Shown piece by piece: positions 4,301 through 26,488 of a DNA stretch of 58,521 nt. How positions within the stretch are numbered: the first letter of the stretch is position 1; each line of letters begins with the position of its first letter. Source of the DNA: Acidovorax sp. (GTDB lineage: Bacteria > Pseudomonadota > Gammaproteobacteria > Burkholderiales > Burkholderiaceae_C); NCBI RefSeq assembly GCF_016783915.1, contig NZ_JADHVT010000014.1:1-58521 (forward strand). Direction: 5' to 3'. Under the pieces are notes generated by a model. It was not told the origin of the DNA. It saw only the letters and a program-made list of their open reading frames with translations, and ran no database searches. The position numbers were made by a program, and so were the translations under genes.

Positions 4301-4303
4301 ACC

Positions 4304-5728: not shown

Positions 5729-5788
5729 GTGCAACGCACACTGTTCCCGACCCGAACAACCTCAGACACGACAACAGGTAAGGCCGCG

Positions 5789-6568
5789 TTGAAACACATT
5801 CCCCGCAAGCGCTTTGGGCAACATTTTTTGTCCGACAAGGGCATCATCGATGACATCGTGCAGGCCATCGCCCCGCTGCCCGGCCAGCCCATGGTCGAGA
5901 TCGGGCCCGGTCTTGCCGCGCTGACCCAGCCCCTGGTTGAGCGCCTGGGCCGTCTTACGGTCATCGAGCTGGACCGCGATCTGGCATTGCGCCTGCGCCT
6001 GCATGGTCAACTGGATGTGATCGAGTCGGATGTGCTCAAGGTGGATTTCACGGCGCTGGCACAGACCCTGCGCGAGAAAGCCGCGCAGCCTGATCTGCGC
6101 CTGCGTGTGGTGGGCAACCTGCCGTACAACATCTCCACGCCCATCCTGTTTCACCTGCTGGCGCATGTGCAGGTTATCGAAGACCAGCACTTCATGCTGC
6201 AAAAGGAGGTGATCGATCGCATGGTGGCCCAGCCCGCCACGAGCGACTACGGGCGCCTTTCGGTCATGCTGCAGTGGCGCTACGCCATGGAAAACGTGTT
6301 GTTTGTGCCGCCCGAGAGCTTCGACCCGCCACCGCGCGTGGACAGCGCCGTGGTGCGCATGGTGCCGCACGCAGAGCCTGCACCCCTGTCGGTGCCCCTG
6401 CTGGAGGAACTGGTCCAGGTCGCCTTCAGCCAGCGCCGCAAGCTGCTGCGCCACACCCTGGGCCGCTGGCTCGAAGCCCGTCAGTTCACTGGCACCTTCG
6501 ACACCCAGCGCCGCGCCGAGGAAGTGCCCGTGGCCGAATACGTAGCGCTGGCGCAGATTTGCTCTTAA
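5789..6568 (+). CDS. rsmA: 16S rRNA dimethyladenosine transferase RsmA (KsgA)
   Basis: RsmA dimethylates A1518 and A1519 of 16S rRNA late in small-subunit assembly. The 259-residue product has the N-terminal KRFGQHFL signature, the SAM-binding [11 protein letters not shown] loop and the catalytic NLPYNIS motif. A TTG start at 5789 is chosen because homologues begin [14 protein letters not shown] and a purine-rich AGGTAAGG lies just upstream. A longer frame back to 5729 adds about 20 low-similarity residues. It is the third gene of the lptD-surA-rsmA unit. Confidence 0.93.
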
Positions 6569-6620
6569 ATTGATAGCTTTCGGCGCTTGATGGTCGAGCG
6601 CAAGGCGCCATTTTGGTTGT
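6567..6620 (+). repeat. Dispersed repeat family A, copy 2
   Basis: It begins within the rsmA stop region with AAATTGATAGCTTT and continues with GGCGCTTGATGG, GAGCGC and AGGCGCC before a short T run. It is in the same orientation as rsmA. The GC-rich blocks can pair, so it could act as a weak terminator or RNA-stabilising hairpin (inference). Confidence 0.55.
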
Positions 6621-6740
6621 AGATGCGATGGCTTATCGGGCGATGCTGCTCAATCTGCCTGCGATGGCGTCGCGCTTGTAGCTTCGGCGCCTCATTTCGT
6701 CGCTACCGTGGCAACCGGCACGGCCCAGACCAGAGACACC

Positions 6741-6834
6741 GCGCAAGGGCCGCCCCGCCGCGCTGGTGTCGTCCCCCTTCCCGAATCGCGTAAGCGATTC
6801 GAGAAAAGGGGGAAGGCGCGGAGCGCCTCAGGGG
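6741..6834 (-). repeat. Dispersed repeat family B, copy 1
   Basis: Read on the minus strand it begins CCCCTGAGGCGCTCCGCG, continues CCTTCCCCC, an inner hairpin (CGAATCGC / GCGATTCG), GGGGGACGAC, and ends GGGGCGGCCCTTGCGC. The same sequence of blocks occurs at 43907-44016 with a different inner hairpin. It sits downstream of the minus-strand barstar region, facing the end of rsmA. The rest of 6621-6846 shows no gene. Confidence 0.6.
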
Positions 6835-6846
6835 TAAGTACCGAAT

Positions 6847-7034
6847 TCAGGCGGCGCTGAGCCAATACCCGGCATTGAAGGGGCTGCTCATGCGCAGCGC
6901 CATGGGCGACACGTCCACGAGCTTGTCCGTGGGCATCTTTTCAGCGGGTTCGCCGTTGATCTCGATGCCTTCTAGGGCTTGGGTGTCGCTAGCCTCGTTC
7001 GCCCGTTCTGCTTGGCTGGTGGATGCAGAACGGG
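6847..7034 (-). pseudogene. Remnant open frame after barstar, unrecognised
   Basis: An open frame continues after the barstar stop and ends LSAA-stop at 6847. Its tail, for example EGIEINGEPAEKMPTDK and then DVSPMALRMSSP, looks like real protein rather than random translation. No credible start or ribosome site is visible, because an upstream Met lies inside the barstar gene in another frame. It is most likely the C-terminal relic of a deleted gene. I do not recognise the family. Confidence 0.35.
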
Positions 7035-7035
7035 C
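7001..7035. repeat. Perfect 11-bp inverted repeat at the barstar stop codon
   Basis: Arms GCCCGTTCTGC (7001-7011) and GCAGAACGGGC (7025-7035) are separated by 13 bases. The right arm overlaps the barstar stop codon. It could form a terminator-like stem on the minus strand, although no T tract follows, or mark the junction where the adjacent gene was truncated. Confidence 0.6.
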
Positions 7036-7460
7036 TACAGAAAAGAATAGAAACACCGGAAGGGGATCTTGCGATCACCCCAGTAATCGGCAGCGTCACG
7101 GAAGATGTCGAGCAGCTGCTCGCGTGCTTCCTTGTCGAACTTGCCCGTGGCAGGAATCTGCTCCAGCACCACAATAAAACCAGGCTGTGGGCCCGATTTG
7201 TGCAAGGGGTCTGTCATGCAGTCGTACAACGCATCGAAGTTCTTGCCGAAGTGCGATGGAAACGTGAATTGGCCGGCAATCAGGTCCAGCACATCCTGCT
7301 TGGATTGCGCGTGGGCCAGGTTGGCGTACAAGAAATGATGACCCATGGAGGTGGCTGCATCCTGCAAGTCCTGCACGCGGAAGGCGCGAATGGACTGCAC
7401 GATGTTGGTGCGCACGCCACGCAGTGGCGTTTCCAGGTCTTTACGAAGTGGCGTCTGCAT
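7035..7460 (-). CDS. Barstar-family ribonuclease inhibitor
   Basis: This 141-residue cytoplasmic protein carries the barstar fold. The segment FPSHFGKNFDALYDCMTD matches the barstar helix 2 region that plugs the ribonuclease active site, and DYWGDRKIPFRCFY forms the C-terminal strand. It should neutralise the ribonuclease encoded just upstream on the same strand before export or on re-entry. The start at MQTPLRKDL follows AAAGAAAGAG and GCGGAG; an in-frame ATG at 7502 would add 14 residues. A 140-base gap separates it from the ribonuclease gene, so it may have its own promoter. Confidence 0.85.
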   Translation of the reverse strand: MQTPLRKDLETPLRGVRTNIVQSIRAFRVQDLQDAATSMGHHFLYANLAHAQSKQDVLDLIAGQFTFPSHFGKNFDALYDCMTDPLHKSGPQPGFIVVLEQIPATGKFDKEAREQLLDIFRDAADYWGDRKIPFRCFYSFL

Positions 7461-11003: not shown

Positions 11004-11546
11004 ATGAAACAACAGATGGCCACCACCTGGTGGCTCACGGGCCTGCCAGGCTCCGGTAAAACCACCCTCGCTCAGGCATTGGCAGATGCGCTGCGTATGC
11101 GCGGAGAACCTGCCTGCGTTCTTGATGGCGATGAACTGCGCCAAGGGCTGTGCACAGACCTGGGGTTTGACGAAGCAAGTCGTGCAGAAAATGTGCGCCG
11201 TGCAGCGCACCTTGCGCAGATGCTCAACGCCAATGCCATTCACGCCATCGTTGCTATGGTCTCCCCCGCATCCACTGCACGTGCTGCTGCCTACGCCACG
11301 ATAGGCACGCAGCGATGCTTTGAAATCCACGTCAGCACTCCGCTGGAAATCTGCGAACAGCGAGACCCCAAGGGCCTGTATGCCAAGGCGCGTGCCAATC
11401 AGTTGACACAGATGACAGGCATACACGCGGCCTACGAGGAGCCTGATGCACCAGCGCTTCGCCTGGACACCAGCGTGATCGAAGTGGGCCAGGCCGTGCA
11501 GCGGATGCTCAATGGCTGGAGCGCGACACCCGAACAATCTACATGA
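11004..11546 (+). CDS. cysC: Adenylylsulfate (APS) kinase
   Basis: APS kinase phosphorylates adenosine 5'-phosphosulfate to PAPS, the universal sulfate donor. The 180-residue protein has the P-loop GLPGSGKTT (13-21), the DGDELRQGL switch (41-49), an AMVSPAS segment in the place of the family's ISP motif, and DPKGLYAKAR (121-130). It is a stand-alone kinase with no sulfurylase domain. It overlaps the following sulfotransferase by 4 bases (ATGA). This implies coupled translation and a dedicated PAPS supply for that enzyme rather than a role in cysteine synthesis; no other cys genes are present here. The start at MKQQMATTWW is preferred over an upstream ATG at 10941. Confidence 0.9.
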   Translation: MKQQMATTWWLTGLPGSGKTTLAQALADALRMRGEPACVLDGDELRQGLCTDLGFDEASRAENVRRAAHLAQMLNANAIHAIVAMVSPASTARAAAYATIGTQRCFEIHVSTPLEICEQRDPKGLYAKARANQLTQMTGIHAAYEEPDAPALRLDTSVIEVGQAVQRMLNGWSATPEQST

Positions 11547-12403
11547 ACACACCACAAACCTTGCGCTACCACTTCATTGCCGGCCTGCCGCGTTCTGGCT
11601 CCACACTGCTGTCGGCACTCCTGCTGCAGAACCCACGCTTTCACGCAGGCATGACCAGCCCGGTGGGTGGGCTGTTTCGCAACATGCTCAACCAGCTGGG
11701 TGCGGGAAGCGAATTTGGGCCGGTGGTCACCAAAGAGCAACGTAGGCGGCTGTCGCGGGGGCTGTTTGAAAGCTACTACGCAGACCAGGCCGGTCACAAG
11801 GACGTCATCTTTGACACCAACCGCATGTGGAGCGCGCAGATGCCTGCGCTCATGGACCTGTTTCCTGGGGCCAAACTGATTGCCTGCGTGCGCAACGTGG
11901 CATGGGTGATGGACAGCATAGAGCGCAGGTACCGCGCCAACCCTTACGAAATCACCCGCCTCTTTAACGACGATACTGAACGCAACACGGTCTACAGCCG
12001 TGTGGAGACCCTGGCCCAGCGCAACCGCATGGTGGGCTACCCGTGGACAGCGCTGAAGGAAGCCTTTTACGGCGAACACGCCAGCTCACTGCTGCTGGTG
12101 GATTACGACCTGCTCGCGCAGGCGCCGCACAAAGTGCTGCCGCTGATCTACCAGTTTCTGGGCGAGCCCGAATTTGCACACGACTTCGAGCAGGTGAAAT
12201 ACGACGCACCGGAGTTTGACGAAGCACTGGGCCTGCACGGACTGCACCAGGTACGCCCGCAGGTAGGACTGCAGCGGCGCGAGACCATTCTGCCGCCGGA
12301 CTTGTTCGAGCAATACAGCAAGCTGTCGTTCTGGCAGGACCATGCCAACAGCCGGGCCAATGTGATCACTGCCAAGTCCGCTGCTTCGGCAGAAAGCCAT
12401 TGA
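11543..12403 (+). CDS. PAPS-dependent sulfotransferase
   Basis: This 286-residue enzyme is predicted to transfer sulfate from PAPS to a hydroxyl or similar acceptor. The 5'-phosphosulfate loop is [11 protein letters not shown] (13-23). The 3'-phosphate binding helix is [17 protein letters not shown] (115-131), with the expected Arg117 and Ser125. No signal peptide or membrane segment is visible, so it should act in the cytoplasm. The acceptor cannot be read from sequence. Its place between APS kinase and a giant exported protein makes that protein, or a glycan or small molecule attached to it, the natural candidate (inference). Confidence 0.85.
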
Positions 12404-12460
12404 TTGCTTCCATATTGATAGCTGGTTTTGCAATGCAGACAGGCGCAAGAGCCATTTTTT
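12402..12460 (+). repeat. Dispersed repeat family A, copy 3
   Basis: It starts at the sulfotransferase stop codon (TGATTGCTTCC, ATTGATAGCT) and continues through GACAGGCGCAAGAGCC to a T7 run. It separates the sulfotransferase from the giant-protein gene. The GGCGCAAGAGCC/T-run end could act as a partial terminator. Confidence 0.5.
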
Positions 12461-12471
12461 TACAAAAAATC

Positions 12472-15400
12472 ATGACCACTGACCACACATCTGCAGCCCC
12501 CTCATCTCCGGTGCAAGAGGTGCTTTTCATTGACAGCCGAGTGCCGGACTTGCAGGCCATCATGGCCGCCGCCAGGCCGGGAGTGAAGGTAGTCATCCTG
12601 GACCCTAACGAAAGCGGCGTGGCGCAGATGGCCAAGGCACTGGACGGGCTGCATGGTCTGGCGTCCATCAGCGTGGTATCGCACGGAGACGAGGGGGTGC
12701 TGCTGCTGGGCAACGGCCCGCTATTCAGTGACAACCTGGAGCAATACCAGGCGCAGCTCAAGGCGATTGGCGCAGCACTGGGCGCTGACGGCGACCTGCT
12801 GCTGTATGGCTGCGACGTGGGGGCGGGCGAGGCGGGAGCCCAGTTCCTGAAGGCGTTGGCGCAATTGACGGGGGCGGATGTGGCCGCCTCCAACGACAGC
12901 ACAGCGGGTGCGGTGCGTGGTGGAGATTGGGATCTGGAGGTCACCACGGGGCAGATCGAGGCGCCCGCTGCGTTGGATGCGCAGGTGCTGGAGGGTTATG
13001 ACTTCAGTCTGCACACGGCCAGTGTCAACACGGTGGCGCAGCTCAAGGCTGCCATCGCCACGGGCAGCATAGATGGCCAGGATGATGTCATCACACTGAC
13101 CGGCAACATCACGTTTGCCGGTGCGGCAGATGCTGTCTCTGTCAATGTGACGGATGGGCACAACATGTCTATCGTTGGTGGCGGTTTTACCCTCAGCGGC
13201 GGAAATCTCGCGCGAGTTCTCAACGTTGCCACCAGTGGGGCTGGCAGCGCGGTCTCAATTGACAACCTCACCATCACCAATGGTTTGGCCGCCGGTGCAG
13301 GTGGTAGCAGTGACCGCACCGTCGGGTCGCCTGGTTCTGCCGGCCTGGGCGGTGGAATTCAGAACAGCGGTGTCTTGACGATTTCGAACAGCACCATCAC
13401 GGTGAACAAGGCTTCTGGTGGTGGCGGTTCGGGGGGGAGCTCGGGCCTGATAAACGGCGGTGGCGGTGGAGGTGGTGGCTTTGGCTCTGGATTAGGTGGA
13501 ACCGGAGGCGACAGCGCTTACGGCACGGGGCCGTCTTCAAGCCCAGGTGCAGGCGTCGGTGGGAGCGGAGGACATGGCGGTGGTCGGCCAAGCGGGGGCG
13601 GCGCGGGTGGTTCGAGCGGCGGCGGTTCAGGAGGCAGCTATGGTGGTCTGAGTGGTTATTCTGTTGGCGGCAACGGCGGCACTGCGAACAATGGATCCAT
13701 CTCTATTGGCGGTGGCGGCGGCGGCGCCGGGGGGAACGGTCTCGGGGGCGCAGGAGGTGGAGCCGCAGGGGCGATCTACAACACCGGGACGCTCACGATC
13801 ACTGGCAGCTCGATCACAAACAATATCGGTGCAGGCGGCGGCGGCGGCGCGGCGAATTACGCATCATCGGGCAATGGGGGAGCTGGTGGCGTTGGGGTAG
13901 GTGGCATCTGGTCCACGGGCACGCTCATCATGGACACCACTTCATCCAATTCGGTGTCTACAGGCAATATCGGTGCAGGAGGCAGCGGTGGCGGAGCAAG
14001 CGGAACGGGCAACATCCCGGGCACTGCAGGCACTGGCACAAATGGCATTCGTGGAACCGTGACGCCTTACGTGGCTCCGGCGTCTGTTGCCAGCGCCACA
14101 TACGATGCTTCGACGGGAGTGCTGTCGGTCACGGGCACCAACATCACCAACGGTGGGACGATAGATGTATCCAAGCTCACTCTCACAGGCCAGGCTGGCT
14201 CCTACACCCTGACCACAGCCAACGTCACCGCCGGTAGCGGCACGGCCTTCAGCGTCACTCTGAACGCAGCCGACCAGCTGGCCATTAACGGCATTCTGAA
14301 CAAGAACGGCACCAGCGCGGTGGACACTACCACCTTCAACCTGGCAGCGGCCGCCAACTGGGATGTGACCGCTTCAGCTGCCGCCGACCTTACCGGTAAC
14401 GGCGTAACAGTATCGAACGTCACTGCACCAACGATTACCTCAGCGACTTACGACGGCAGCACCCACGTCTTCACCGTCACCGGCACCAACTTGGTCAAGA
14501 CCATCGGTGCAACGAATGACATCACGATCTCCGCATTGACGATCACCGGCGAAGGCGGTGCAACACGCGTGCTGTCCACCACGGGCAATGTGGAAGTCAC
14601 CTCGGCCACCAGCTTCACCTTTACCCTGGCTGGCGCCGATATTGCTGCGGTTGATACCCTTTTGAACAAGAACGGCACTTCTGCTGTCAGCACCACCACG
14701 TACAACATCGCTGCCGCCGACGATTGGAACAGCGTCATCACCGGCGGCAACATCCAGGATCTGACAGGCAACGGCATCACGGTCTCCAACGCCGCGCCCA
14801 GCATCCTCTTGTCCACTTACGATGCCGCTACTGGCATCCTCTCGGTATCGGTCGTCAACATCGCGGGTGGCGATACCATTGATGTGAGCAAGCTCTCGGT
14901 CGTCGGCCAGGGCGGGGGATCCTACACGCTGACCACGGCCAATGTCACGGCTGGCAGTTCCACGGCCTTCTCAGTTACGCTCAATGCCGCAGACAAGCTC
15001 GCTGTCAACGGCTTCCTGAATAACAACGGCACTAGCGCGGTGGATACCACCGCCTTCAACCTGGCCGCTGCCGCCAGCTGGAACGCGACCACCACATCGG
15101 GTGCCGACCTGACCGGCAATGCCGTGACTGTGTCGAATGTCTCGGCCCCCACCATCACGTCGGCCACCTACGACGTCGCCACCCACATCCTCACGGTCAC
15201 CGGCACGGGCCTGGTCAAGACCCTGGGGGCGACGAACGACGTCACGGTCTCCGCCCTGACCATCACCGGTGAGGGCGGCTCCACGCGCACCCTGTCTACC
15301 ACCGGCAACGTGGAAGTCACCTCTGCTACCAGCTTTGCCGTGACCCTGGCCGGTGCCGACCAGGCGGCCGTGGAGGCGCTTTTCAACAAGAACGGCACCA

Positions 15401-16617
15401 CTTCCACAAGCGGCGCCACCTATAACTTGGCAGCGGCAGACGATTGGAACAGTCTGGTCACCGGCGGCAACATCGCTGACGCCGTATCCCCCATCACGGT
15501 GAGCAGCGTTCCCCCGCCGACCATCACCAGCTCCACCTACAACGCCAACACGGGCGTGCTAACGGTCACCGGTACCGGATTGACCAGCGTCACGGGTGCC
15601 AACAATGACATCGTGGCCAACAAGTTGAGCCTGCAGGGCGAAGGGGGGAGCAGCTACACGTTAACCACCACCAGCAACGTGGAGATCACGAGCAGCACCA
15701 GCTTCACGATGAACCTAAGCGCTGTAGACCGATTGGGTGCCAACCTGATCCTGAACAAGAACGGCACCAGTTCCACCAGCGTCAACACCTACAACCTCAT
15801 TGCCGCAGAGGACTGGGCTGCTGGGGCGGACCCTGCCGTGGTTCTGGCTGACCTGACGGGCAATGGCATTACGGTGAGTAATGTGGTGGCACCCACCGTC
15901 ACGTCAGCCACCTACAACGTAGCCACGGGCGTGCTGGTGGTCACGGGCAATAACTTCCTCTCGCTGACCGGGGCGAACAATGACATCACGGCCAACCGCA
16001 TTCGCTTTCTGGGCCAGGGGGCGTTCAACTACACGTTGACCAACACGCCCAATGTGGACATCACGTCCAACACCAGCTTCACCATGACCATGAGCGTCAC
16101 TGACAAGGCCCAGTTGGCGCTGCGGCTGAACAAGGACGGCACCAGCTCCACCGACGCCACCACCTACAACATAGGCATGCTGGAGGACTGGAACACAGGT
16201 GCGGCCACGGCCGTGGTGATCGCCGACCTGTTTGGCAATCCGATCACGGTCTCTGGCAATGACCAAGATGCCCCTGTATGGGTCTCGGCAAGCGTCAATG
16301 GTGCCAGTCTCGTGCTGACCTACGCCGACACCAGCAGCCTGGATGCCATCAACGTAGCAGGCACAACAACCTTCGCAGTGGTTTCCGGGGGTGTCGCTAA
16401 CACAGTGACTGGCGTGGCCGTGAACGGCTCCGCCAAAACTGTGACTTTGACCTTGACGACGCCGGTAGGGTTTGCCGAAGTAGTCACTGTGGCCTACACA
16501 GACCCCACGGCAGGCAACGATGCCAACGCAATCCAGGACATCCAGGGCAACGACGCCGCCAGCTTGGGTGTGACCCCGGTCACCAACAACACACTGGACA
16601 CCACCCCCGCGTGGTGA
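12472..16617 (+). CDS. Giant DUF4347 repeat surface protein, 5' portion (frameshifted)
   Basis: The first 1381 residues of a large, probably type I-secreted, surface protein. A DUF4347 domain fills about residues 16-180 ([40 protein letters not shown]), as found at the N terminus of many giant bacterial adhesins. A strand-rich segment ([17 protein letters not shown]) leads into an extremely Gly-rich stretch coded at about 13400-14050. Six ~120-residue repeats follow, starting near 14080, 14430, 14790, 15150, 15520 and 15890. Each contains TYD/TYN, then an NKNGTS-like motif, and an LxAAxxW-like end. A SwmB-like repeat (ASLVLTY ... [14 protein letters not shown]) runs from 16270. There is no Sec signal peptide. 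The frame then stops abruptly in mid-repeat at 16615-16617, while the reading continues in another frame. Confidence 0.8.
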
Positions 16618-17630
16618 ACACAGCCACCGTTACCGCCAACCAGCTGGTCCTGAGCTACACCGAAGCGACCACACTGGACGCCGTGAACACCGCGCCCATT
16701 GGCGCCTTTGCGGTGACGGCGGGAGGCTCTGCCAATGCCGTCACCGGTGTGGCCGTGAACGCAGCCGCCAAGACCGTCACCCTGACCCTTGCATTCGTTG
16801 TGGGAGCCGGCCAGACCGTCACCGTGGCCTATACGGACCCCACGGCAGGCAACGACGCCAATGCCGTCCAGGACGCAGCAGGCAATGACGCCGCCAGCTT
16901 CGCAGCCCGGCCCGTAACCAACCTCACCGCTGCAGACCCTGACCCAACCCCGGTACCTCCCACGCCAACGCCCACCCCGACCCCTGGGGTGCCCGACAAC
17001 GACGGGGTGCCCAACACCGTGGAAGACCAGGCCCCAGGCATCCCGGGCCCCAATGGAGCTATCGTGGCGGGAGACGGTAACGGAGACGGCATCAAGGACA
17101 GCGAACAAGCGGGAGTGGCCTCGATCGGTTTCGTGCTTAGCCCCACAGGGCAGAGCAACCCGGGCAATGCACCACCGACTTTTACGACCCTGGTTGCCAG
17201 CAGTCAGAACGGTAAAGTGGGCAGCGGTAACGACAACGCACGCATCACCAGCCTGACGCAAAAGGACGCACCGCCAGACCTGCCTGCGGGCATGCAAATG
17301 CCCATCGGACTGGTGAGCTTCACGGTAGAGCTGGGGCAAGGCAAAACAGGAGAGAATTTCAGCCTGTACGTGGACCCGGCGCTGGGCGTGAACGGATACT
17401 GGAAAGAAAATGCCAGCGGCCAATGGGTGAACATCGCCAGCGAGCCTTATGGAGGCAAGATGGTGATGGAGGGCGGACGTTTGCGGCTGGACTTCCACAT
17501 CGAAGATGGCGGGCAGTTTGATGCGGATGGCAAGGTGGACGGGATCATCACCGACCCCGGAGCGCCGGGGCACATGGCGCTGTCGATCATGGGGCTGGCG
17601 CCGGATATGCCTCACGGGTTCTGGTTCTGA
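16611..17630 (+). CDS. Giant surface protein, 3' portion after frameshift
   Basis: This segment completes the protein interrupted at 16615. It opens with a second SwmB-like repeat ([17 protein letters not shown] ... [15 protein letters not shown]) matching the one before the break. A Pro/Thr linker follows, then a thrombospondin-3/EF-hand-like calcium loop ([10 protein letters not shown]). The C-terminal domain of about 170 residues ([39 protein letters not shown]) resembles the domain annotated choice-of-anchor U in other bacteria. The apparent GTG start at 16611 has no ribosome site and is probably not used. If one G is restored at TGG-TGA, one protein of about 1720 residues results. No RTX nonapeptides are seen. 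Confidence 0.75.
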
Positions 17631-17695
17631 GCGGCACCCGCGTGCCGGCTAAGCCCTATCCTTGCAGAGTTGACAACATGACACTGGAACTATTC

Positions 17696-18460
17696 ATGAC
17701 AACGAAAAAACAGACTCAAACGCCAATGCCCACTGCAATAGCGGGCAAACTCGCTGCGACAGCGCTCACGCTGGTCGTGGGGGGGCTGCTGGCGGCCTGT
17801 GGAGGCGGTGGTGGAGGCTCAGGCCCTACCATTGACCCCGCCCAGCTCAAAGGGCGCTGGGTGACTGCCGCAGGTGTGGCACCGGCCATGACAGCGGTGG
17901 TTGTACCCGACGTCAATGGAGCCGCCAACGCCTGGCTGCTGGCGCAGGATGCCAGTCGACTGGTCAAGCTGGTGGTGCGAAGCGACAGCAGCGCCAACGG
18001 GAAAACTTACGCTCTGGGGCAAGGCAATGCCATAGGCCAAGCGGTGACCGGCCAGGTCAATGCGGCCCTGACGGCCAGCCCCAAGACGATTGCATTCACG
18101 GGTCTGAACACTACGGGGACGCTGACCCAGAGCGACGCACTGGCTACCCCTGCAGTTCAGGCGGAAGTGCAGGGCAGCTGGAGTGCCACATTGGGTGGTA
18201 ATGCCCAGACCGTGCAATGGAGTCTGGCGGCGACAGGCGGCCTGACCGGAAGCTCGACAACGGGGTGCACCTACGTTGGTAGTGTGGCGGCGATAGCCAG
18301 CACAGCTGCGTATAGCGTAAGTTTCAACGAAAGCTGCGCGGACGGCAGCAAGACTGCATTTGGCGGTGTGGGTACGCTCAATGCGGCCAAGAATGGGCTG
18401 ACGGTGGTGGTGGCGAGCGCAGACGAGTCCCGCGGGGCTGCTCTCTTCTTGGCGAAGTAG
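17696..18460 (+). CDS. Putative lipoprotein of the secretion locus
   Basis: A 254-residue predicted lipoprotein with a basic lead (MTTKKQTQ), a hydrophobic stretch and the lipobox LLAAC followed by a Gly run. The mature part is Ala/Gly/Thr/Ser-rich and probably all beta, with two Cys (GCTYVG and ESCADGS) that may pair. I recognise no family. It lies between the giant protein and its putative transporter, so it may help display or anchor that protein. An in-frame ATG at 17678 would add 6 residues; 17696 gives a more usual signal length. Confidence 0.65.
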   Translation: MTTKKQTQTPMPTAIAGKLAATALTLVVGGLLAACGGGGGGSGPTIDPAQLKGRWVTAAGVAPAMTAVVVPDVNGAANAWLLAQDASRLVKLVVRSDSSANGKTYALGQGNAIGQAVTGQVNAALTASPKTIAFTGLNTTGTLTQSDALATPAVQAEVQGSWSATLGGNAQTVQWSLAATGGLTGSSTTGCTYVGSVAAIASTAAYSVSFNESCADGSKTAFGGVGTLNAAKNGLTVVVASADESRGAALFLAK

Positions 18461-18482
18461 AACAGCATTTACCGTCTACCCG

Positions 18483-18518
18483 GAGCCTGGCCCTGCATCG
18501 GCAGTGCCAGGCTCTTGC
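18483..18518 (+). terminator. Hairpin between the lipoprotein and the transporter genes
   Basis: Arms GAGCCTGGC (18483-18491) and GCCAGGCTC (18506-18514) form a perfect 9-bp stem with a 14-base loop, followed by TTGCGTTGTG. The T tract is poor, so it may be a leaky terminator or attenuator setting transporter levels below substrate levels. Confidence 0.45.
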
Positions 18519-18558
18519 GTTGTGTGCACAGACTTCACATTCACCCGACCCTCTCCGC

Positions 18559-20286
18559 ATGTCCGTATCTGTAACGCCACACGAACTGAAGCAGGCTTTG
18601 GCAAAGCTCGCGCCCTGTCTCTGGTGGGCCCTCGGCCTGAGTGTGCTGGCAGGACTTTTGGTTCTGGCGCCCACGTTATACATGTTCGAGGTTTACGACC
18701 GCGTGGTGAACAGCCGCAACGCCATGACTCTCGCCATGCTGACGCTGGCCGTGCTGTTGGCCATCGGTGTGATGGAGGTGCTGGAGTGGGCACGTTCGGA
18801 AACCCTGCGTGAGGCGGGTGCGGCCCTGGACCGTGCGCTGGCCCCCCGTGTGTTCACAGCCATTCATGCTGCGCATCTGAGGCAGGGGGGCGCAGCGGGG
18901 GCCCAGCCCGTGATGGATTTGCGATCGGTGCGTGACTTTTTTCACGGACCTGCACTTGGGGCTGCGATGGAAATGCCGGTGGCCTTGGTGATGCTGGTGC
19001 TTCTGTTTGTGATCCATCCGTTGCTGGGGTGGGTGTCCCTCGCCGGTGCTGCGCTGCAGGTCGGACTTTCGTGGCTGAACGAGCGCAGCACCAGTCCAGC
19101 CTTGCTGCGGGCCAATCAATCGGACATTGGCGCGCGGGCCTATGTGGATGGCACCTTGCGCCACAGCGACGTGATTGCGGCCATGGGCATGGAGAAAGAC
19201 ATGCGCCGCCGCTGGTTGGCGCAGCACGAGGAGAGTCTGGGACTGCAGTCGCTGGCGTCGGACCGCGCAGGGGTGTTGCAGGCGCTGGGCAAGATGCTGC
19301 AGACGACTTTGTCGTCGGCGCTTCTGGGCCTGGGGGCTTGGCTTTTGATGCATGACCAGTTGCCTGGTGGGCCGGGAATGCTGATCGTCGGATCAGTGCT
19401 GGGCGGCCGTGTGCTGGCGCCTCTGGTGCAAATGGTGTCCCAGTGGCGAGCGGTGGTACAGGTGCAGGCCGCTTGGGGGCGGCTTGGGCAGCTTCTGGAG
19501 AGGTTGCCTGCCTCTGTGCAAGGGATGCCTTTGCCCAAGCCGAGGGGGCGTGTGACGGTTGAGAGTCTGGTCGCAGGAGCCTCTGCAGGGGCGCCGCCGT
19601 TTGTGAAAGGTGTGGCCTTCTCGTTGCAACCGGGGGAAGTGCTGGTGGTTCTGGGTGCGTCTGCAGCGGGCAAGACCACCCTGGCACGCATGCTGATGGG
19701 GCTGTGGCCTCCTGTGGCGGGCAGTGTCCGGCTGGATGGAGTGGATGTCAGTGTGTGGAACAAGGCGGAGTTGGGGCCATACGTTGGCTATGTGCCGCAG
19801 GACGTCGAACTGTTGGAGGGCACGCTGGGCGACAACATCGTTCGCTTTGGCGAGATGGACGAAAAGGCCATGGTGGATGCCGCACAGGCGGTGGGTGTGC
19901 ACACCTGGATCACTTCGCTCCCACAAGGTTATGCCACCCCTGTGGGGGCGGCCGGCGTGATGCTCTCCGGCGGGCAGCGCCAGCGAATCGCGCTGGCACG
20001 TGCCCTCTATGGCAATCCGGTTTTTGTCGTGCTGGACGAGCCCAACGCTAGCCTGGACGAGGTGGGCAATGTTGCATTGGGCCGGGCCTTGCAGGAGTTC
20101 AAGGCCCGTGGCACCACTTTTGTGGTGATGACCCATCTGCCCAGCGTGCTGGCGGTGGCGGATAAATTACTCATCATGCAGGGTGGGGGGCAGCAGGCCT
20201 TTGGCCCCCGAGATGATGTGCTGGCGGCATTGCGAAATGCTTCTGCGGGTACTCCGGCGGCCGCCGTCGCGCCGCGTGCCGCCTGA
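18559..20286 (+). CDS. Type I secretion ABC transporter, first half-transporter (PrtD type)
   Basis: This 575-residue permease-ATPase has an N-terminal membrane domain (LWWALGLSVLAGLLVLAPTL and later hydrophobic segments to about 300) and a nucleotide-binding domain. The latter has Walker A GASAAGKTT (about 365-373), signature LSGGQRQRIALARAL (about 469) and Walker B VVLDEPNASLDE (about 490), plus a switch His (MTHLP). YMFEVYDRVVNSRN near residue 40 is typical of PrtD/LapB-like exporters. No C39 peptidase-like domain is present. Walker A has Ala where the third consensus Gly normally sits, but the Lys and Thr are kept. The start at 18559 is chosen over an upstream ATG at 18520 because similarity begins there. 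Confidence 0.88.
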   Translation: MSVSVTPHELKQALAKLAPCLWWALGLSVLAGLLVLAPTLYMFEVYDRVVNSRNAMTLAMLTLAVLLAIGVMEVLEWARSETLREAGAALDRALAPRVFTAIHAAHLRQGGAAGAQPVMDLRSVRDFFHGPALGAAMEMPVALVMLVLLFVIHPLLGWVSLAGAALQVGLSWLNERSTSPALLRANQSDIGARAYVDGTLRHSDVIAAMGMEKDMRRRWLAQHEESLGLQSLASDRAGVLQALGKMLQTTLSSALLGLGAWLLMHDQLPGGPGMLIVGSVLGGRVLAPLVQMVSQWRAVVQVQAAWGRLGQLLERLPASVQGMPLPKPRGRVTVESLVAGASAGAPPFVKGVAFSLQPGEVLVVLGASAAGKTTLARMLMGLWPPVAGSVRLDGVDVSVWNKAELGPYVGYVPQDVELLEGTLGDNIVRFGEMDEKAMVDAAQAVGVHTWITSLPQGYATPVGAAGVMLSGGQRQRIALARALYGNPVFVVLDEPNASLDEVGNVALGRALQEFKARGTTFVVMTHLPSVLAVADKLLIMQGGGQQAFGPRDDVLAALRNASAGTPAAAVAPRAA

Positions 20287-20313
20287 TCACCCTCTTCCAA
20301 CTCAACTGACACC

Positions 20314-22059
20314 ATGTCCATCAGCGGATTTTTCTCGCGCAGCGAAATCACCCAGGCCCTGCGGAGCCTCCAGCGTGAATGGGTTGTGATCGCAATATTC
20401 AGCATGGTGGCCAACCTGCTCATGCTGACACCCACGCTGTACATGCTGCAGATCTACGACCGCGTGCTGGTCAGCCGCAACGAGCTCACCTTGTTGGTGG
20501 TCTCGCTGCTTGTCCTGTTCCTGTTTGCCGCCATGGCGTTTGCCGAATGGGCGCGGTCCCAGCTGCTCGTGCGCGCCGGGGTGCGCCTGGACCGGTTGCT
20601 GGGGGAGCGTGTCTTCTCGGCAGGTTTCTCGCGCAGTGTCCGTGAAGGAGGGGGTAACCCTGGCCAGTTGTTCACGGATCTGACGGAGGTACGCCAATTC
20701 CTCACGGGCCCCAGCATTTTTGCCTTTTTCGATCTGCCATGGGCACCTATCTACATTGGGGTGCTGTTCTTGCTGCACCCCCTGCTGGGCGCGGTGGCCG
20801 TGGCCTTTGCTCTGATCCAGGCCGCCTTGGCATGGCTGGGGCACCAGCGCACGGTGGTGCCTTCCGAATCCCTGGCCAAGGCGCAGGGCCGGTCGCATGC
20901 CTACCTGAATGGCAAGCTGCGCAATGCCGAGGCGGTTGAGGCCATGGGCATGTTGCAGCAGTTGCACCACCGATGGGCATTGTTGCAGGCGCGCTATGCC
21001 GAGCTGCACGCGGCAGCCCAGGGCCTGACGCACCGCATCACGGCCTGGAGCAAGTCTGTACGTTATGCGCAGCAGGCCCTGTCGCTGGCGGTGGGTGCTT
21101 TGCTGGTGATCGATGGCCAACTATCGGCCGGAGCCATGATTGCTGCCAACGTGCTGATGACCCGCGCCTTGGCTCCGATTGACCAGGTTGTGAGTGCATG
21201 GCGCGGCTTTTTGGGGGCCCGCGCGGCCTTCTTTCGGCTGGAGCAACTGCTGCAAGAGCATCCACCGTTGCCCAAGGTCTCCGCAGCCCCGCGTCTGCAA
21301 GGGGATGTTCAGCTGCGCAATGTGCACGCCACTGCGCCGGGGCGGGTGACTCCGATTCTTCAGCAGGTGGACCTGCATGCTCCGCCGGGTTCGCTGACAG
21401 TGGTGCTGGGCCCCTCGGGTTCCGGAAAATCCACGCTGGCGCGCGTGCTGGTGGGCGTCTGGCCCGTATCGCAGGGCGAGTTGTTGTTTGATGGTCAGCC
21501 CCTTACCGCCTGGAGCCACGAGACCTTGGGCCCTCAGGTAGGCTACCTGCCACAGGATACGGTCCTGTTCGGTGGGACGATTGCTGACAACATCGCACGT
21601 TTTGCTGCGGTGGATTCTGCCAAGGTCATTGCAGCGGCCCAATGCGCAGGCCTACATGAGATGGTGCTTAGATTTCCCAAAGGCTATGACACGCCGATTG
21701 GAGAGGCTGGGCGCTTGCTTTCGGGGGGACAACGCCAACGCATCGGACTAGCTCGCGCCCTGTATGGTGATCCAGCGCTCTTGGTACTGGATGAGCCCAA
21801 CGCCCACCTGGACGATGTGGGCGAAGCGGCCTTGCTCGGGGCCATGCGCCAGCTCAAGGAGCGCGGCAAGACCATTGTGATGGTGACGCATCGGGCGGGG
21901 GTGCTTGCGCTTGCAGATCAGGTGCTCGTTCTGCAGGACGGTCAGGTACAGCTGAAGGGCCCGCGCGATGAAGTCTTGGCACAGCTGCAGGCGGCACGCC
22001 AAGCCCCCTCCGCTTCAGCTGCTGGTTCTTTGCCTGCTCCGCAGCCGCTGCCCGCCTGA
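20314..22059 (+). CDS. Type I secretion ABC transporter, second half-transporter (PrtD type)
   Basis: A 581-residue paralogue of the preceding gene with the same layout: membrane domain with YMLQIYDRVLVSRNE near the N terminus, then Walker A GPSGSGKST (about 366), LSGGQRQRIGLARAL, Walker B LVLDEPNAHLDD and a switch His (VTHRA). Both members of the pair keep the catalytic motifs. They could form a heterodimer, as proposed for the RtxB/RtxE pair of the Vibrio cholerae MARTX exporter, or serve different substrates. Only 27 bases separate it from the first ABC gene. Confidence 0.88.
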   Translation: MSISGFFSRSEITQALRSLQREWVVIAIFSMVANLLMLTPTLYMLQIYDRVLVSRNELTLLVVSLLVLFLFAAMAFAEWARSQLLVRAGVRLDRLLGERVFSAGFSRSVREGGGNPGQLFTDLTEVRQFLTGPSIFAFFDLPWAPIYIGVLFLLHPLLGAVAVAFALIQAALAWLGHQRTVVPSESLAKAQGRSHAYLNGKLRNAEAVEAMGMLQQLHHRWALLQARYAELHAAAQGLTHRITAWSKSVRYAQQALSLAVGALLVIDGQLSAGAMIAANVLMTRALAPIDQVVSAWRGFLGARAAFFRLEQLLQEHPPLPKVSAAPRLQGDVQLRNVHATAPGRVTPILQQVDLHAPPGSLTVVLGPSGSGKSTLARVLVGVWPVSQGELLFDGQPLTAWSHETLGPQVGYLPQDTVLFGGTIADNIARFAAVDSAKVIAAAQCAGLHEMVLRFPKGYDTPIGEAGRLLSGGQRQRIGLARALYGDPALLVLDEPNAHLDDVGEAALLGAMRQLKERGKTIVMVTHRAGVLALADQVLVLQDGQVQLKGPRDEVLAQLQAARQAPSASAAGSLPAPQPLPA

Positions 22060-22108
22060 ACGCGTCGCGCACATTCGAGACGAGCGAACATTTTCTGAAC
22101 ACCCGCCC

Positions 22109-23467
22109 ATGGCCCACACTGAACCCTTGAAACAAGCACCCTCGATCTCCTCACTGCCGGGAGTCCGATCGGCTCCCCAGCCTCCATCGGACACCGGACG
22201 CGCGGCACGCACTGGGCTTTGGGTGCTGGGCCTGGGCCTTGGGGGATTTTTGCTGTGGGCGGCTGTTGCTCCCCTGGACGAAGGGGTGCCCAGCCAGGGC
22301 GTGGTTGCGATCGACACCAAACGCAAAGCGGTGCAGCACCTCAGCGGAGGCATCGTCAAGCAGGTCTTCGTGCGCGAAGGTGACGTGGTGCAGGCGGGGC
22401 AACCGTTGATATCTCTGGATGATGCGGTGGCCAAGGCCAACTACGAGGCGGTCCGCCAGCGGTACCTGGGTTTGCGTGCGGTCCAGGGGCGGTTGCTGGC
22501 CGAGCAGTCGGGCGCTGCCACCATTGTGTTCCACTCGGATTTGCAGGTTGCGGCGGCAGACCCGCTGATTCAGCAGCAGATGAAGAACCAGGAGCAACTG
22601 ATTCAATCGCGGCGCGCGGCACTGCGTGCGGACCTGCAGGGCATCGAAGAAAGCATTCAGGGCCAGAACGCTCTGCTGCAGGCCTATGCGGGCATGCTGA
22701 CCAGCCGGCGTGGGCAACAGGCATCGCTCGAAGAAGAGCTGCGCCATACGCGCGAGCTGGTCAAGGAGGGCTACTCCCCGCGTAATCGACAACTGGAACT
22801 CGAACGCATGGTAGCCGACTCCAGCCTGGCCATCACGGAGTTGCTGGGCAACACGGCGCGCACGCAGCGCACGGTCAGAGAAATGCGCCAGCGGGCCCTG
22901 GCCCGGCAGCAGGAATACCGCAAGGAGGTGGAGACGAACCTCGCAGACATCACGCGGGAGGTGCAGTCGGATGCCGACAAGTTCACCGCGCTGAAGGCCG
23001 ATCTAGACCGCACGGAAATCCGTGCGCCCGCTACTGGCCAGGTGGTGGGCCTTGCGGTGCAGACCGTGGGCGCTGTGGTCCAGGCGGGGCAGCAGCTGAT
23101 GGGCATCGTCCCTCCTAATGAGCCTTTGGTGCTGGAGGCCCGTATTGCTCCCCACCTGATCGACAAGGTGCGCCCGGGCTTGCATGCCGATGTGCGTTTC
23201 AGTGCGTTCGCCCACTCGCCGCAACTTGTCGTGCAGGGAGAACTGGCGTCGGTCTTTGGGGATCTGCTGACGGATGCACAAAGCAACCAGACCTATTACC
23301 TCGCGCGGGTCAAGGTCACGCCGGATGGCATGAAGACGCTGGGCGAACGCCACTTGCAGCCAGGCATGCCGGCCGAGGTGGTCATCAAGACCGGGGAGCG
23401 CACCATGCTGACCTATCTGCTGGGCCCCTTGCTCAAGCGTGTGTCAGGTTCCCTGAAGGAAGAGTGA
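22109..23467 (+). CDS. HlyD-family periplasmic adaptor of type I secretion
   Basis: This 452-residue membrane-fusion protein links the inner-membrane ABC pump to the outer-membrane channel. There is a cytoplasmic tail of about 35 residues and one membrane helix (GLWVLGLGLGGFLLWAAVAP). The first lipoyl half-motif is GGIVKQVFVREGDVVQAGQPL, followed by long coiled-coil helices (about residues 110-300) and the second lipoyl half (RTEIRAPATGQVVGLAV). The C-terminal beta domain ends LLGPLLKRVSGSLKEE. It starts 49 bases after the second ABC gene and abuts the TolC-like gene. Confidence 0.9.
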   Translation: MAHTEPLKQAPSISSLPGVRSAPQPPSDTGRAARTGLWVLGLGLGGFLLWAAVAPLDEGVPSQGVVAIDTKRKAVQHLSGGIVKQVFVREGDVVQAGQPLISLDDAVAKANYEAVRQRYLGLRAVQGRLLAEQSGAATIVFHSDLQVAAADPLIQQQMKNQEQLIQSRRAALRADLQGIEESIQGQNALLQAYAGMLTSRRGQQASLEEELRHTRELVKEGYSPRNRQLELERMVADSSLAITELLGNTARTQRTVREMRQRALARQQEYRKEVETNLADITREVQSDADKFTALKADLDRTEIRAPATGQVVGLAVQTVGAVVQAGQQLMGIVPPNEPLVLEARIAPHLIDKVRPGLHADVRFSAFAHSPQLVVQGELASVFGDLLTDAQSNQTYYLARVKVTPDGMKTLGERHLQPGMPAEVVIKTGERTMLTYLLGPLLKRVSGSLKEE

Positions 23468-23469
23468 GC

Positions 23470-24828
23470 ATGGCGGCTTTTTTTTCCACGCCGTCGAACG
23501 CCTTGCGGGCGGTCTCGCTCTCCGTCTTGGTGGTATGCGCAGGACCTGTCTGGTCCATGGACCTCCAGCAGGCCTACCAGGCGGCCTTGCAGCAGGACGC
23601 TACCATTCGAGCCGCCCGCGCGGCTGCCGATGTGGGGGATGAGCGTGTGGAGCAGGCCAAGGCCATGCGCTACCCCAATGTGGCATTCAGTGCAGCTCGC
23701 AACCGCAACGACCTGAGCAACACGCAACGCAACATCCTGGGCCGGTCGGTGACCGTGGATGAAAACTACACCAGCCACAACGCTACCTTGACCTTGCGCC
23801 AACCTGTCTACCGCAAGTCACTGTCGGTAGGGCTGGAACAGGCCCATCAGATGCGCGCTGAAGTGGGCGCGCAGCTGGACCGGGAGCTACAGAACCTGGG
23901 TGTGCGCGTGACCGACGCCTACCTGCAGCTGTTGCTGGCGCAAGACCAGCTTGCCCTGGCGCGTGCGCAGAAGAACACCACCACTACCCAGCTGGACGCC
24001 GCGCGCAAACTGCTGGTGGCGGGCAGTGGCACGCGCACCGACATCGACGAAGCCCAGGTCCGGCTTGACATGGCCGTGGCGCAGGAGCTTGAGATACGGC
24101 AGCAGCTTGACTATGCGCGCCACCAGCTGGAGACACTGGTCAACCAGCCGGTGGCGGCGCTCAGCCCGCTGGATGAAGCCAAGTTCGCAGCCTGGACGCC
24201 TGAACAGCGCAGCGTGCAGGACTGGCTGGCCCTGGCAGAGGACAACAGTCCTGAGATTCGGCAACAGAAGGCACGGCTGGATGTGGCACGTTTGGAGATC
24301 GAGAAAGCCCGCACTGGGCACCTTCCCACACTGGATGCAGTGGCCCAATGGACGCGCAGTGGCAGCGAGAACGTTACTACCCCCAGTTCCAGCTATACCA
24401 ACCGTGTGATCGGCCTGCAGCTGAACATGCCACTGTTTGCGGGCGGTTATGTCAGCTCCACGGTACGTCAGGCGGTTGCGGAGCAGGTGCAGGCCCGCGA
24501 ACTGCTGGAGGCCGCGCGCCGTGACCTCAGCCTTCGCATCCACACCGAATTTCGGGGCGTCAGCGAAGGCCGCCTGCGCATCCGGGCGCTGGAACAGGCT
24601 GCGCGGTCTGCTACACAGCTCGTGGTGTCGAGCCGCCGCTCGTTTGAGGGTGGGGCCAGAACCTTGGTGGACATCCTGAACGCGGAGCAGCAAAAGGAAC
24701 TGGCCCTTCGTGACCTGGCCCGAGCGCGCTACACCTACTTGGTGTCCTGTGTGCGCCTGCAGGCTCTGGCCGGAGGGGATCGGGACAGCAGCATCGCTGC
24801 TGTCAATGCGCTGCTCAAGACGCCCTGA
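23470..24828 (+). CDS. TolC-family outer-membrane channel
   Basis: A 452-residue TolC-like protein with a signal peptide (about residues 1-29, ending GPVWSM) and two homologous efflux-protein halves. The first has LQQAYQAALQQDATIRAARA and the second DNSPEIRQQKARLDVARLEIEKA. The start at ATG 23470 has GGAAGAG at ideal spacing; a GTG at 23464 would give a 4-base overlap with the adaptor stop. It completes a four-protein type I secretion system. Tight spacing implies one transcript from 18559 to 24828. Confidence 0.9.
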   Translation: MAAFFSTPSNALRAVSLSVLVVCAGPVWSMDLQQAYQAALQQDATIRAARAAADVGDERVEQAKAMRYPNVAFSAARNRNDLSNTQRNILGRSVTVDENYTSHNATLTLRQPVYRKSLSVGLEQAHQMRAEVGAQLDRELQNLGVRVTDAYLQLLLAQDQLALARAQKNTTTTQLDAARKLLVAGSGTRTDIDEAQVRLDMAVAQELEIRQQLDYARHQLETLVNQPVAALSPLDEAKFAAWTPEQRSVQDWLALAEDNSPEIRQQKARLDVARLEIEKARTGHLPTLDAVAQWTRSGSENVTTPSSSYTNRVIGLQLNMPLFAGGYVSSTVRQAVAEQVQARELLEAARRDLSLRIHTEFRGVSEGRLRIRALEQAARSATQLVVSSRRSFEGGARTLVDILNAEQQKELALRDLARARYTYLVSCVRLQALAGGDRDSSIAAVNALLKTP

Positions 24829-24951
24829 GCCCAACACACACCGCGTCTCTGGGTGCGGCAACGCTTTCCGTCGCCGCATGAAAAATTCCCGTTAGTATGG
24901 CGATGCAGGGGCAAGCAAGTGAATACGTTCAGGCAGCCATGGCGGCTGTGC

Positions 24952-26469
24952 TCAGCGGCTGCTCGGGAAGCTGAACACCGCGCCCTCACGCACACCGGCA
25001 CTCGGCCAACGCTGGGTAATGGTCTTGCGCTTGGTGTAAAAGCGCACGGCGTCGGGGCCGTAGGCGTGCAGGTCGCCAAACAGGCTGCGCTTCCAGCCGC
25101 CAAACGAGTGGTACGCCACCGGCACGGGCAGGGGCACGTTCACGCCCACCATGCCCACCTGGATGTGGTCGGTGAAGTAGCGGGCGGCCTCGCCGTCGCG
25201 CGTGAAGATGCAGGTGCCGTTGCCGTATTCGTGGTCGTTGATGAGCTGCATGGCTTCTTGCAGCGTCTTCACGCGCACCACGCCCAGCACGGGGCCGAAG
25301 ATTTCTTCCTGGTAGATCTTCATGCCGGGCTTGACGTTGTCAAACAGGCAGGCGCCCAGGAAGTAGCCTTCTTCATGGCCCGCGACCTTCACGCCACGGC
25401 CATCGACCACCAGCGTGGCGCCTTCGGCCACACCGCTGTCCACATAGGCCTTCACTTTTTCGAAGTGTGGCTTGGTCACCAGCGGGCCCATGTCGTTGCT
25501 GTTATCGGTGCCGGGGCCGACCTTCATCTTGGCGATTTCAGTCTTGAGGCCCGCGATCACGGCGTCACCCACCTCGTCGCCCACCGCCACCAGCAGCGGA
25601 ATGGCCATGCAGCGTTCGCCGCACGAGCCATAGGCCGCGCCCATCAGCGCGCTCACGGCGTTGCCCACATCGGCGTCGGGCATCAGCACCGCATGGTTCT
25701 TGGCGCCACCCAGGGCCTGCACGCGCTTGCCGTGTTTGCAGCCTTCGCTGTAGATGTATTCGGCAATCGGCGTGGAGCCCACAAAGCTCACGGCCTTCAC
25801 GCGCGGGTCCTGCAGCAGAGTGTCCACGGCCAGCTTGTCGCCGTTGACGACGTTCAGCACGCCGGGCGGCAGGCCCGCTTCCAGCGCCAGCTGGGCGATG
25901 AACAGCGTGGAGGATGGGTCGCGCTCGGAGGGCTTGAGCACAAAGGTGTTGCCACACGCCACGGCCATGGGCCACATCCACAGCGGCACCATCGCCGGGA
26001 AGTTGAAGGGCGTGATGCCTGCGGTGACGCCCAGCGCCTGGAACTCACTCCACGAGTCGATGCTGGGGCCCACGTTGCGGCTGTGCTCGCCCTTGAGCAG
26101 CTCGGGGGCGTAGCTGGCGTATTCCACGTTCTCGATGCCGCGCTGCAGCTCGCCGTGCGCATCGGCCAGCACCTTGCCGTGTTCGGCTGTGATCAGGGCG
26201 GCGATCTTGTCGGCGTTCTCTTCGAGCAGCACCTTGAGCTTGCTCATAACGCGCGCGCGCTTCAAAGGTGGCGTATTGCGCCAGGCCGGGAAGGCCGCTT
26301 CGGCGGAGGCGATGGCGGCTTCGACGGTGGCCTTGCTCGCCAGCGCCACGTTGGTGGTCGATTGGCCGGTGGCGGGGTTGAACACGGGTTGCGTGCGCTC
26401 GGTGTCCGCAACGATTTGGCCGTCGATGAGGTGGCCGACGGTGGTGGTGACGTTTTTGTCGTGGTTCAT
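24952..26469 (-). CDS. mmsA: CoA-acylating methylmalonate-semialdehyde dehydrogenase MmsA
   Basis: MmsA oxidises (methyl)malonate semialdehyde to acetyl- or propionyl-CoA with NAD and CoA. The 505-residue aldehyde dehydrogenase has PFNFPAMVPLWMWP (155-168), the VGSTPIA loop and catalytic Cys287 in GERCMAI, the MmsA form of the active site. The C-terminal YTKRKTITQRWP is also typical. It follows a DJ-1 protein and an omega-amino acid transaminase on the same strand, which together give beta-alanine to malonate semialdehyde to acetyl-CoA. Confidence 0.93.
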   Translation of the reverse strand: MNHDKNVTTTVGHLIDGQIVADTERTQPVFNPATGQSTTNVALASKATVEAAIASAEAAFPAWRNTPPLKRARVMSKLKVLLEENADKIAALITAEHGKVLADAHGELQRGIENVEYASYAPELLKGEHSRNVGPSIDSWSEFQALGVTAGITPFNFPAMVPLWMWPMAVACGNTFVLKPSERDPSSTLFIAQLALEAGLPPGVLNVVNGDKLAVDTLLQDPRVKAVSFVGSTPIAEYIYSEGCKHGKRVQALGGAKNHAVLMPDADVGNAVSALMGAAYGSCGERCMAIPLLVAVGDEVGDAVIAGLKTEIAKMKVGPGTDNSNDMGPLVTKPHFEKVKAYVDSGVAEGATLVVDGRGVKVAGHEEGYFLGACLFDNVKPGMKIYQEEIFGPVLGVVRVKTLQEAMQLINDHEYGNGTCIFTRDGEAARYFTDHIQVGMVGVNVPLPVPVAYHSFGGWKRSLFGDLHAYGPDAVRFYTKRKTITQRWPSAGVREGAVFSFPSSR

Positions 26470-26488
26470 GGTGATTTCAGGTAAAAAG

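Follow-up and report, generated by a model that had tools for sequence, protein, structure and literature searches.

What is a pair of sulfation genes doing directly in front of a giant surface protein and its exporter? This question is raised by a stretch of DNA from Acidovorax sp. (58,521 nt, contig NZ_JADHVT010000014.1, assembly GCF_016783915.1), called here the window, whose positions are counted from its first letter. On its + strand, from 11004 to 24828, eight genes follow each other: an adenosine 5'-phosphosulfate (APS) kinase, a sulfotransferase (ST), a giant protein with a DUF4347 domain, a lipoprotein, two ATP-binding cassette (ABC) transporters of the PrtD type, an HlyD-family adaptor and a TolC-family channel. 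As detailed below, the ST and the giant form a conserved pair. The explanation favoured here, with moderate confidence, is that of a dedicated cassette, whose ST would sulfate the giant before its export, most likely on tyrosines of a glycine-rich beta-helix module.

Conservation of the sulfotransferase-giant pair

The linkage of the ST (11543..12403, 286 aa) with the DUF4347 giant located directly 3' of it is solid. A survey of 299 genomes of the family detected relatives of the ST at E 1e-10 in 12 genomes and DUF4347 in 64. In all seven genomes that harbour a close ST (the window's genome and six others, at 71-77% identity), this gene is directly 5' of a DUF4347 giant. A second survey, of named genomes, covered the 80 nearest of at least 486 confirmed ST relatives, which are thus nearest relatives and no random sample. 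It revealed the same arrangement in 78 of the 80 loci, the contig ending too early in the remaining two (L028 and L071). The 78 linked loci belong to 12 named genera, namely Pseudomonas, Stutzerimonas, Acidovorax, Giesbergeria, Massilia, Undibacterium, Methylomonas, Chitiniphilus, Zobellella, Rhodanobacter, Pelomonas and Albitalea. Same-organism pairs (L019/L043, L020/L092; identical STs) were kept in the counts. DUF4347 is present in 84 of the 86 loci that carry a close ST. At the level of the class, an ST was found at E 1e-20 in three of 369 genomes including the window's, and the strong matches of the other two both adjoin DUF4347 (2/2, a count that leaves out the third ST match, G515:C16, at 83 bits). 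An initial annotation of this DNA had suggested to test whether co-occurrence in other genomes exceeds chance, and it does so for the ST and the DUF4347 giant. The refuting condition named there, a lack of conserved linkage in related genomes, did not materialise. Judged from titles and the beginnings of abstracts, this pair is undescribed in the searched listings of open-licence PubMed Central (PMC) papers.

The exporter is exchangeable. An exporter could be recognised for 56 linked giants: it is of the M50/HlyD kind for 51 of them, while the other five have a PrtD-type exporter or its marker lipoprotein. An LEPR-type N-terminal motif accompanies the M50/HlyD exporter in 48 of the 56, three others having this exporter without the motif. 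The five giants of the PrtD or marker lipoprotein group (window, L015, L016, L026 and L029, the last with the lipoprotein seen and the exporter not) are all devoid of the motif, and the motif was found together with a PrtD exporter in none of the 56. The stretches around 32 other linked giants showed no exporter. The LEPR-type motif is not confined to linked giants, as 24 of the 83 unlinked rows have it. The M50-type exporter includes HlyD proteins, a fusion of an M50 peptidase with HlyD and an OEP channel (L040:17628-20817, L072:3045-6461); most stretches showed no recognisable ABC gene alongside it. Because the type of exporter changes while the ST-giant pair stays, the ST is coupled to the giant and not to a type I exporter as such. 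The initial annotation had coupled the sulfation pair to an exported surface protein and its type I system: the first part of this proposal stands, while the second does not extend to the 51 giants served by M50/HlyD.

PAPS supply and the candidate acceptor

The product of 11543..12403 (+ strand) is a predicted 3'-phosphoadenosine 5'-phosphosulfate (PAPS)-dependent sulfotransferase of the Sulfotransfer_3 type, which exceeds the Pfam cut-offs of PF13469 (54.5 versus 27 bits, E 2.5e-14) and PF00685 (33.1 versus 22 bits). The two PAPS motif regions, LPRSGSTLL and [11 protein letters not shown], are invariant at most of their positions across 36 aligned sequences (that of the window and those of 35 relatives). 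The 5' and 3' PAPS motifs of such enzymes serve to bind PAPS. Their roles are also described in PMC6637879. When a profile of the 36 STs was compared with PDB sequences, the best match was protein-tyrosine sulfotransferase 1, at a weak E of 5e-5, a heparan N-sulfotransferase reaching 0.003. The alignment with tyrosylprotein sulfotransferases (TPSTs) is also weak, its best single stretch having an E of 0.0098.

The gene of the APS kinase (CysC type, PAPS-making; 11004..11546, +; TIGR00455, 178.7 bits for a cut-off of 138.7; PF01583, E 4e-50) shares an ATGA with that of the ST, which confirms the 4-base overlap noticed initially. In the survey of the window's genome, this kinase (170.6 bits) is the sole full APS kinase match, the other match reaching 22.4 bits over 47 positions. 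The CysD and CysH matches of the same genome are both slightly under their cut-offs (379.9 versus 396.6 and, for the APS reductase model, 228.7 versus 235.3), and CysH carries CC and CxxC motifs, which are a mark of APS reductases. This bacterium therefore probably assimilates sulfate without the need of PAPS and, as the only full APS kinase coexists with an APS-reductase-type CysH, the operon's kinase probably supplies the ST with PAPS. With a threshold of 95 bits, set by the analyst and counted by hand (at E 0.001 the tally would be 227/299, mostly matches of about 22 bits), an APS kinase was found in 12/12 ST genomes versus 75/299 family genomes overall (hypergeometric 3e-8). It lies at most 6 kb from the ST in five of the seven close-ST genomes and within the stretch in at least 37 of the 86 close-ST loci.

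The search for an acceptor leads to the part of the giant that follows DUF4347, a beta-helix with a glycine-rich module (13249..14016, +). Such a module was called when at least 50 windows of 40 residues had 35% Gly within the 500 residues after DUF4347. The count was limited to proteins whose DUF4347 is followed by 300 residues or more, 13 shorter rows being dropped (six with ST, seven without), and six duplicate loci were removed (L106, L107, L113, L116, L119 and L135). The module, about 230 residues long, occurs in 74 of 82 ST-linked giants versus none of 76 unlinked DUF4347 proteins (Fisher p 2e-36, without tree correction although the rows are related). A class-wide search for the module retrieved one of 369 genomes, the window's own, with no other positive control for its sensitivity; it agrees with the module count, the other two ST genomes of the class being without the module in both.

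Tyrosine accounts for 475 of the 10471 non-Gly residues of the Gly-rich stretches of linked giants (4.5%) versus 1674 of 109920 outside (1.5%). In the window, the tyrosines of the conserved motifs GYSVGG (13654-13671), GAIYNTG (13768-13788) and, just past the module, TPYVAP (14062-14079, +) could be sulfate acceptors. In the alignment of the modules, one loop column holds Tyr in 63/74 sequences and two other columns hold it in 66/74 and 63/74. The giant is the best acceptor candidate and its sulfation appears likely, a module tyrosine being the best guess for the residue. Another tyrosine, Y176 at the end of DUF4347, is present in 100% of linked versus 45% of unlinked rows. It is a weak lead, which may be a residue of the fold, linked rows being mostly one clade. 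Acidic-context tyrosines were also considered as a TPST-like marker and rejected, with 0 to 6 per linked giant and mostly 0.

The phylogenies bear on whether this association merely reflects inheritance. One group of the DUF4347 tree (Shimodaira-Hasegawa-like approximate likelihood ratio test, SH-aLRT, 88, not starred) unites 83 of the 86 distinct linked rows with a single unlinked row, L156; the linked rows L141, L142 and the first copy of L036 are elsewhere, on long branches. L156 has neither ST nor module, yet it groups with L029-L031 (97, starred), which counts against mere inheritance. The ST tree places the window, L026, L027, L029 and L031 together (100/95, starred), while the DUF4347 of L029 and L031 are in the other large sub-group (98, starred). 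In the same way, the two trees disagree for L032 and L033 against L034. The STs of L029 and L031 are 89 and 92% identical to that of the window, the N-terminal regions of their giants 39 and 41%, and both giants carry the module. Undibacterium seohonense (L036:1478-19506) has two tandem ST-DUF4347 pairs, whose giants belong to distinct regions of the DUF4347 tree.

Several observations weigh against sulfation of the module. Eight of the 82 linked giants do not have it, so it cannot be the sole acceptor if all linked STs work alike. As most linked rows belong to one clade, its association with the ST may partly be the shared descent of one lineage. TPST sites usually lie in an Asp/Glu context, and the Gly-rich stretches of linked giants are depleted of both residues. 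The most conserved loop tyrosine is Tyr in 63 of the 74 modules and thus not invariant. On the low-confidence alignment, the ST positions that face the catalytic Glu and Lys of TPST are not Glu and Lys. Furthermore, three distant STs of the family (42-48% identity; L021, L022 and L023) lie away from DUF4347. That of L021 (46-48% identical) comes directly after a very Gly-rich autotransporter (4050-7151; Pfam Autotransporter and ESPR) and that of L022 after a long repeat protein with a PATR match below cut-off and no Gly-rich part; no recognisable surface protein was found beside that of L023.

Still more distant STs (about 25% identity) are paired with APS kinases after repeat proteins whose sequences suggest secretion on visual inspection (L024:9053-10486, L025:9445-10781); the repeat protein of L024 has no Pfam match.

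If the cassette acts on the giant, its APS kinase would make PAPS and the ST would use it to sulfate the newly made giant in the cytoplasm, most likely on tyrosines of the Gly-rich beta-helix module. The type I exporter, here of the PrtD type, would then carry the giant out, with its conserved C-terminal FWF as a likely signal, and the DUF4347 domain, a probable cysteine protease, may trim the giant during or after export.

The ST could instead sulfate a surface glycan or lipid, or a glycan borne by the giant, being linked to the latter only through a common surface role. Bacterial sulfation of Nod factors and lipopolysaccharide is cited in PMC4216712, and the ST has a weak match to the nodulation protein NoeE (20.5 bits for a cut-off of 500). 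A gene of a PMT_2-type glycosyltransferase lies 5' of the ST in 28 of 91 loci; this too weighs against a sulfated protein, as it keeps a sulfated glycan possible. However, only Pseudomonas loci showed relatives of the PMT_2 gene, and the operon genes of the window include no glycosyltransferase. In addition, the ST remains beside the giants when the exporter or the giant itself changes, and protein-tyrosine sulfotransferases outscore heparan N-sulfotransferases in the profile search, both being weak. An acceptor of this kind is rather unlikely.

It is improbable that the ST has lost its activity, or produces some small sulfated metabolite that has no relation to the giant and is linked to it by operon hitch-hiking. 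Small molecules are the substrates of many Sulfotransfer_3 proteins and the catalytic residues of TPST are not recognisable in the ST on the weak alignment, but the PAPS motif regions are largely invariant, every ST genome of the family possesses an APS kinase and the adjacency persists in spite of the disagreement between the ST and DUF4347 trees. Finally, it is very improbable that the sulfate goes to a different protein encoded in the locus, such as the lipoprotein, which adjoins the giant in the window and four other loci, or elsewhere the phage-tail Collar proteins encoded in 65 of the 91 loci examined, since the lipoprotein is found in just 4/91 loci versus DUF4347 in 84/86 close-ST loci and the window's genome has no Collar match, which led to the rejection of Collar proteins as a universal acceptor.

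Sulfation of the giant by its neighbour thus remains the preferred explanation. A wider proposal, held only tentatively, would be that of a widespread proteobacterial family of self-processing giants. In the cytoplasm, a dedicated TPST-like enzyme would sulfate tyrosines of their Gly-rich module, whatever the exporter, and the Pseudomonas cassette would be a multi-modification system with a second ST-like gene, an oxygenase resembling aspartyl hydroxylases, a PMT-type glycosyltransferase and Collar proteins. To our knowledge, bacterial protein sulfation is known mainly from RaxX, the signal peptide of the Rax system. If sulfation of the giant is true, protein sulfation would extend beyond this peptide to structural surface proteins of bacteria, and a pair conserved in a dozen named genera would make sulfated surface proteins directly testable. 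It would also place DUF4347 giants in a functional context and explain why a bacterium that apparently assimilates sulfate without PAPS has an APS kinase.

Other features of the operon and its surroundings

The initial annotation described the giant as a single repeat protein of about 1720 residues, which turns out to be a read-through of two frames. The first (12400-16617) counts 1405 codons when read from TTG 12400, where it could start at the earliest; the start retained is ATG 12472, picked by eye. Thus delimited (12472..16617, +), it comprises DUF4347, the beta-helix with its Gly-rich module, Ig-like repeats and the first SWM repeat (PF14252, E 1.9e-54; PF13753). The second (16611..17630, +, 339 codons) comprises the second SWM repeat, a choice-of-anchor U domain and a terminal ...GFWF (PF13753; NF041766, E 3.7e-19). 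The break, near 16,610 (16604-16617), is located in the SWM-repeat region, close to a short run of C. As the homologue of Acidovorax sp. GW101-3H11 (L026), a groundwater isolate, is in a single frame, the break reflects either a recent lesion or an error in the sequence. An error within the repeats is plausible because the giants of L015 and L016 are likewise split into several frames. The gene order of the window is kept in L026 up to the end of its stretch, at the second ABC transporter. The FWF terminus is common to the five giants compared (window, L015, L016, L026 and L029), and neither frame of the window's giant has a Pfam match to RTX repeats at E 0.001.

The DUF4347 domain (12520..13005, +; 184 bits for a Pfam cut-off of 24.6) displays a putative catalytic dyad, with a His in SHG (12679-12696) and a Cys in YGC (12805-12822). 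The His is conserved in 98% and the Cys in 100% of 86 linked rows, versus 97% and 100% of 80 unlinked ones. The family alignment matches PDB chain 9qpe_G, named as a DUF4347 protein, at E 0.0074 with His and Cys aligned; this chain is very probably Tce1 (PA0256). PMC13323088 describes Tce1 as a putative cysteine protease, whose His/Cys dyad is proposed to resemble that in the protease domain of a clostridial toxin, and PMC8262886 assigns a DUF4347 domain to PA0256. Judging from these resemblances, the domain is probably a cysteine protease similar to the cysteine protease domain (CPD, C80), by which the giant could cleave itself. Matches of the alignment to designed TIM barrels and to VexL, short or partial, were not used. 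A second DUF4347 gene is located on another contig of the window's genome (G000:C154:1983-2477).

Downstream of the giant, the annotated lipoprotein and four-component type I exporter, all on the same strand, were recovered. The lipoprotein (17678..18460, +) carries the lipobox LLAAC, seen in the sequence, and starts at 17678 or 17696; homologues lie 3' of the giant in L015, L016, L026 and L029. The two PrtD-type ABC transporters (18559..20286 and 20314..22059, +; TIGR01842, 591 and 644 bits) have Walker A/B and LSGGQ. The HlyD-family adaptor (21968..23467, +; TIGR01843, 346 bits) matches from residue 78 and its true start is probably downstream of 22059. The TolC-family outer membrane channel (23464..24828, +) matches TIGR01844 (293 bits) and PF02321. 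The TIGR01842, TIGR01843 and TIGR01844 matches all exceed curated cut-offs and identify the ABC, HlyD and TolC parts of a type I system of the PrtD subfamily.

A perfect 9-bp inverted repeat read by eye (18483..18514, +; arms 18483-18491 and 18506-18514), which is a possible attenuator, separates the lipoprotein gene from those of the exporter, so the eight genes may not form a single transcript. It is not listed by the terminator scan, which was limited to loops of at most 8. The promoter and terminator scans of the window were at shuffle level (2 found versus 2.3, and 13 versus 11.2, respectively). Genes similar to lptD, surA and ksgA lie upstream of the operon (1706-6568). On the other side, a long + strand open reading frame (ORF) without family match (24853-26484) is the shadow of a - strand aldehyde dehydrogenase gene (24952-26469).

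Within 10 kb on either side of the ST, the cassettes of other genomes (L072, L079, L040 and others) also encode an Asp_Arg_Hydrox-type oxygenase (31/91 loci), a second ST-like protein (25/91), GNAT and DUF6916 proteins, besides the PMT_2-type and Collar-type proteins mentioned above; Pfam was applied to examples of these neighbours.

Comparison with known systems

Large repeat adhesins such as LapA are exported by type I systems. The giant resembles them by its very long repeat protein, the ABC/HlyD/TolC exporter encoded downstream and its conserved C-terminal end. It differs from them by the lack of an RTX match, the N-terminal DUF4347, the Gly-rich module and the linked ST. With Tce1, it shares the DUF4347 domain and the conserved putative His/Cys dyad; however, Tce1 is a 310-residue effector of a type VI secretion system, whereas in the window DUF4347 forms the N-terminal part of a giant that is accompanied by a type I exporter. 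As for TPST1/2, they are the best, though weak, PDB match of the ST profile, with the 5' PAPS motif aligned, but the ST is bacterial and, on the low-confidence alignment, the catalytic Glu and Lys of TPST are not conserved in it.

The initial annotation knew of no bacterial exporter provided with its own sulfation pair. The Rax system of Xanthomonas oryzae (RaxST, RaxX, RaxA, RaxB and RaxC) is a precedent: according to PMC4216712 and PMC6637879, RaxST, RaxA and RaxB are encoded in one operon, and RaxX is Tyr-sulfated, then cut and exported by the type I system. These papers call the PAPS-making genes (raxPQ, for APS kinase and ATP sulfurylase) housekeeping. In both cases, a sulfotransferase is encoded with type I genes for a membrane fusion protein and an ABC transporter, which in the window are near neighbours on the same strand. 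The ABC transporters of the window have no Pfam match to Peptidase_C39 at E 0.001, their best NCBIfam model being of the PrtD type, and the intergenic gaps of the operon, at most about 140 bases, are too short for a RaxX-like precursor of 60 residues (the region upstream was not searched for small ORFs). The window is thus Rax-like in outline and, on the features tested, no member of the Rax family. RaxB carries a C39 peptidase whereas the transporters of the window are of the PrtD type, and the APS kinase is here inside the operon. The Rax substrate is a 60-residue peptide with a double-glycine leader, whereas the partner of the ST in the window is a giant DUF4347 protein.

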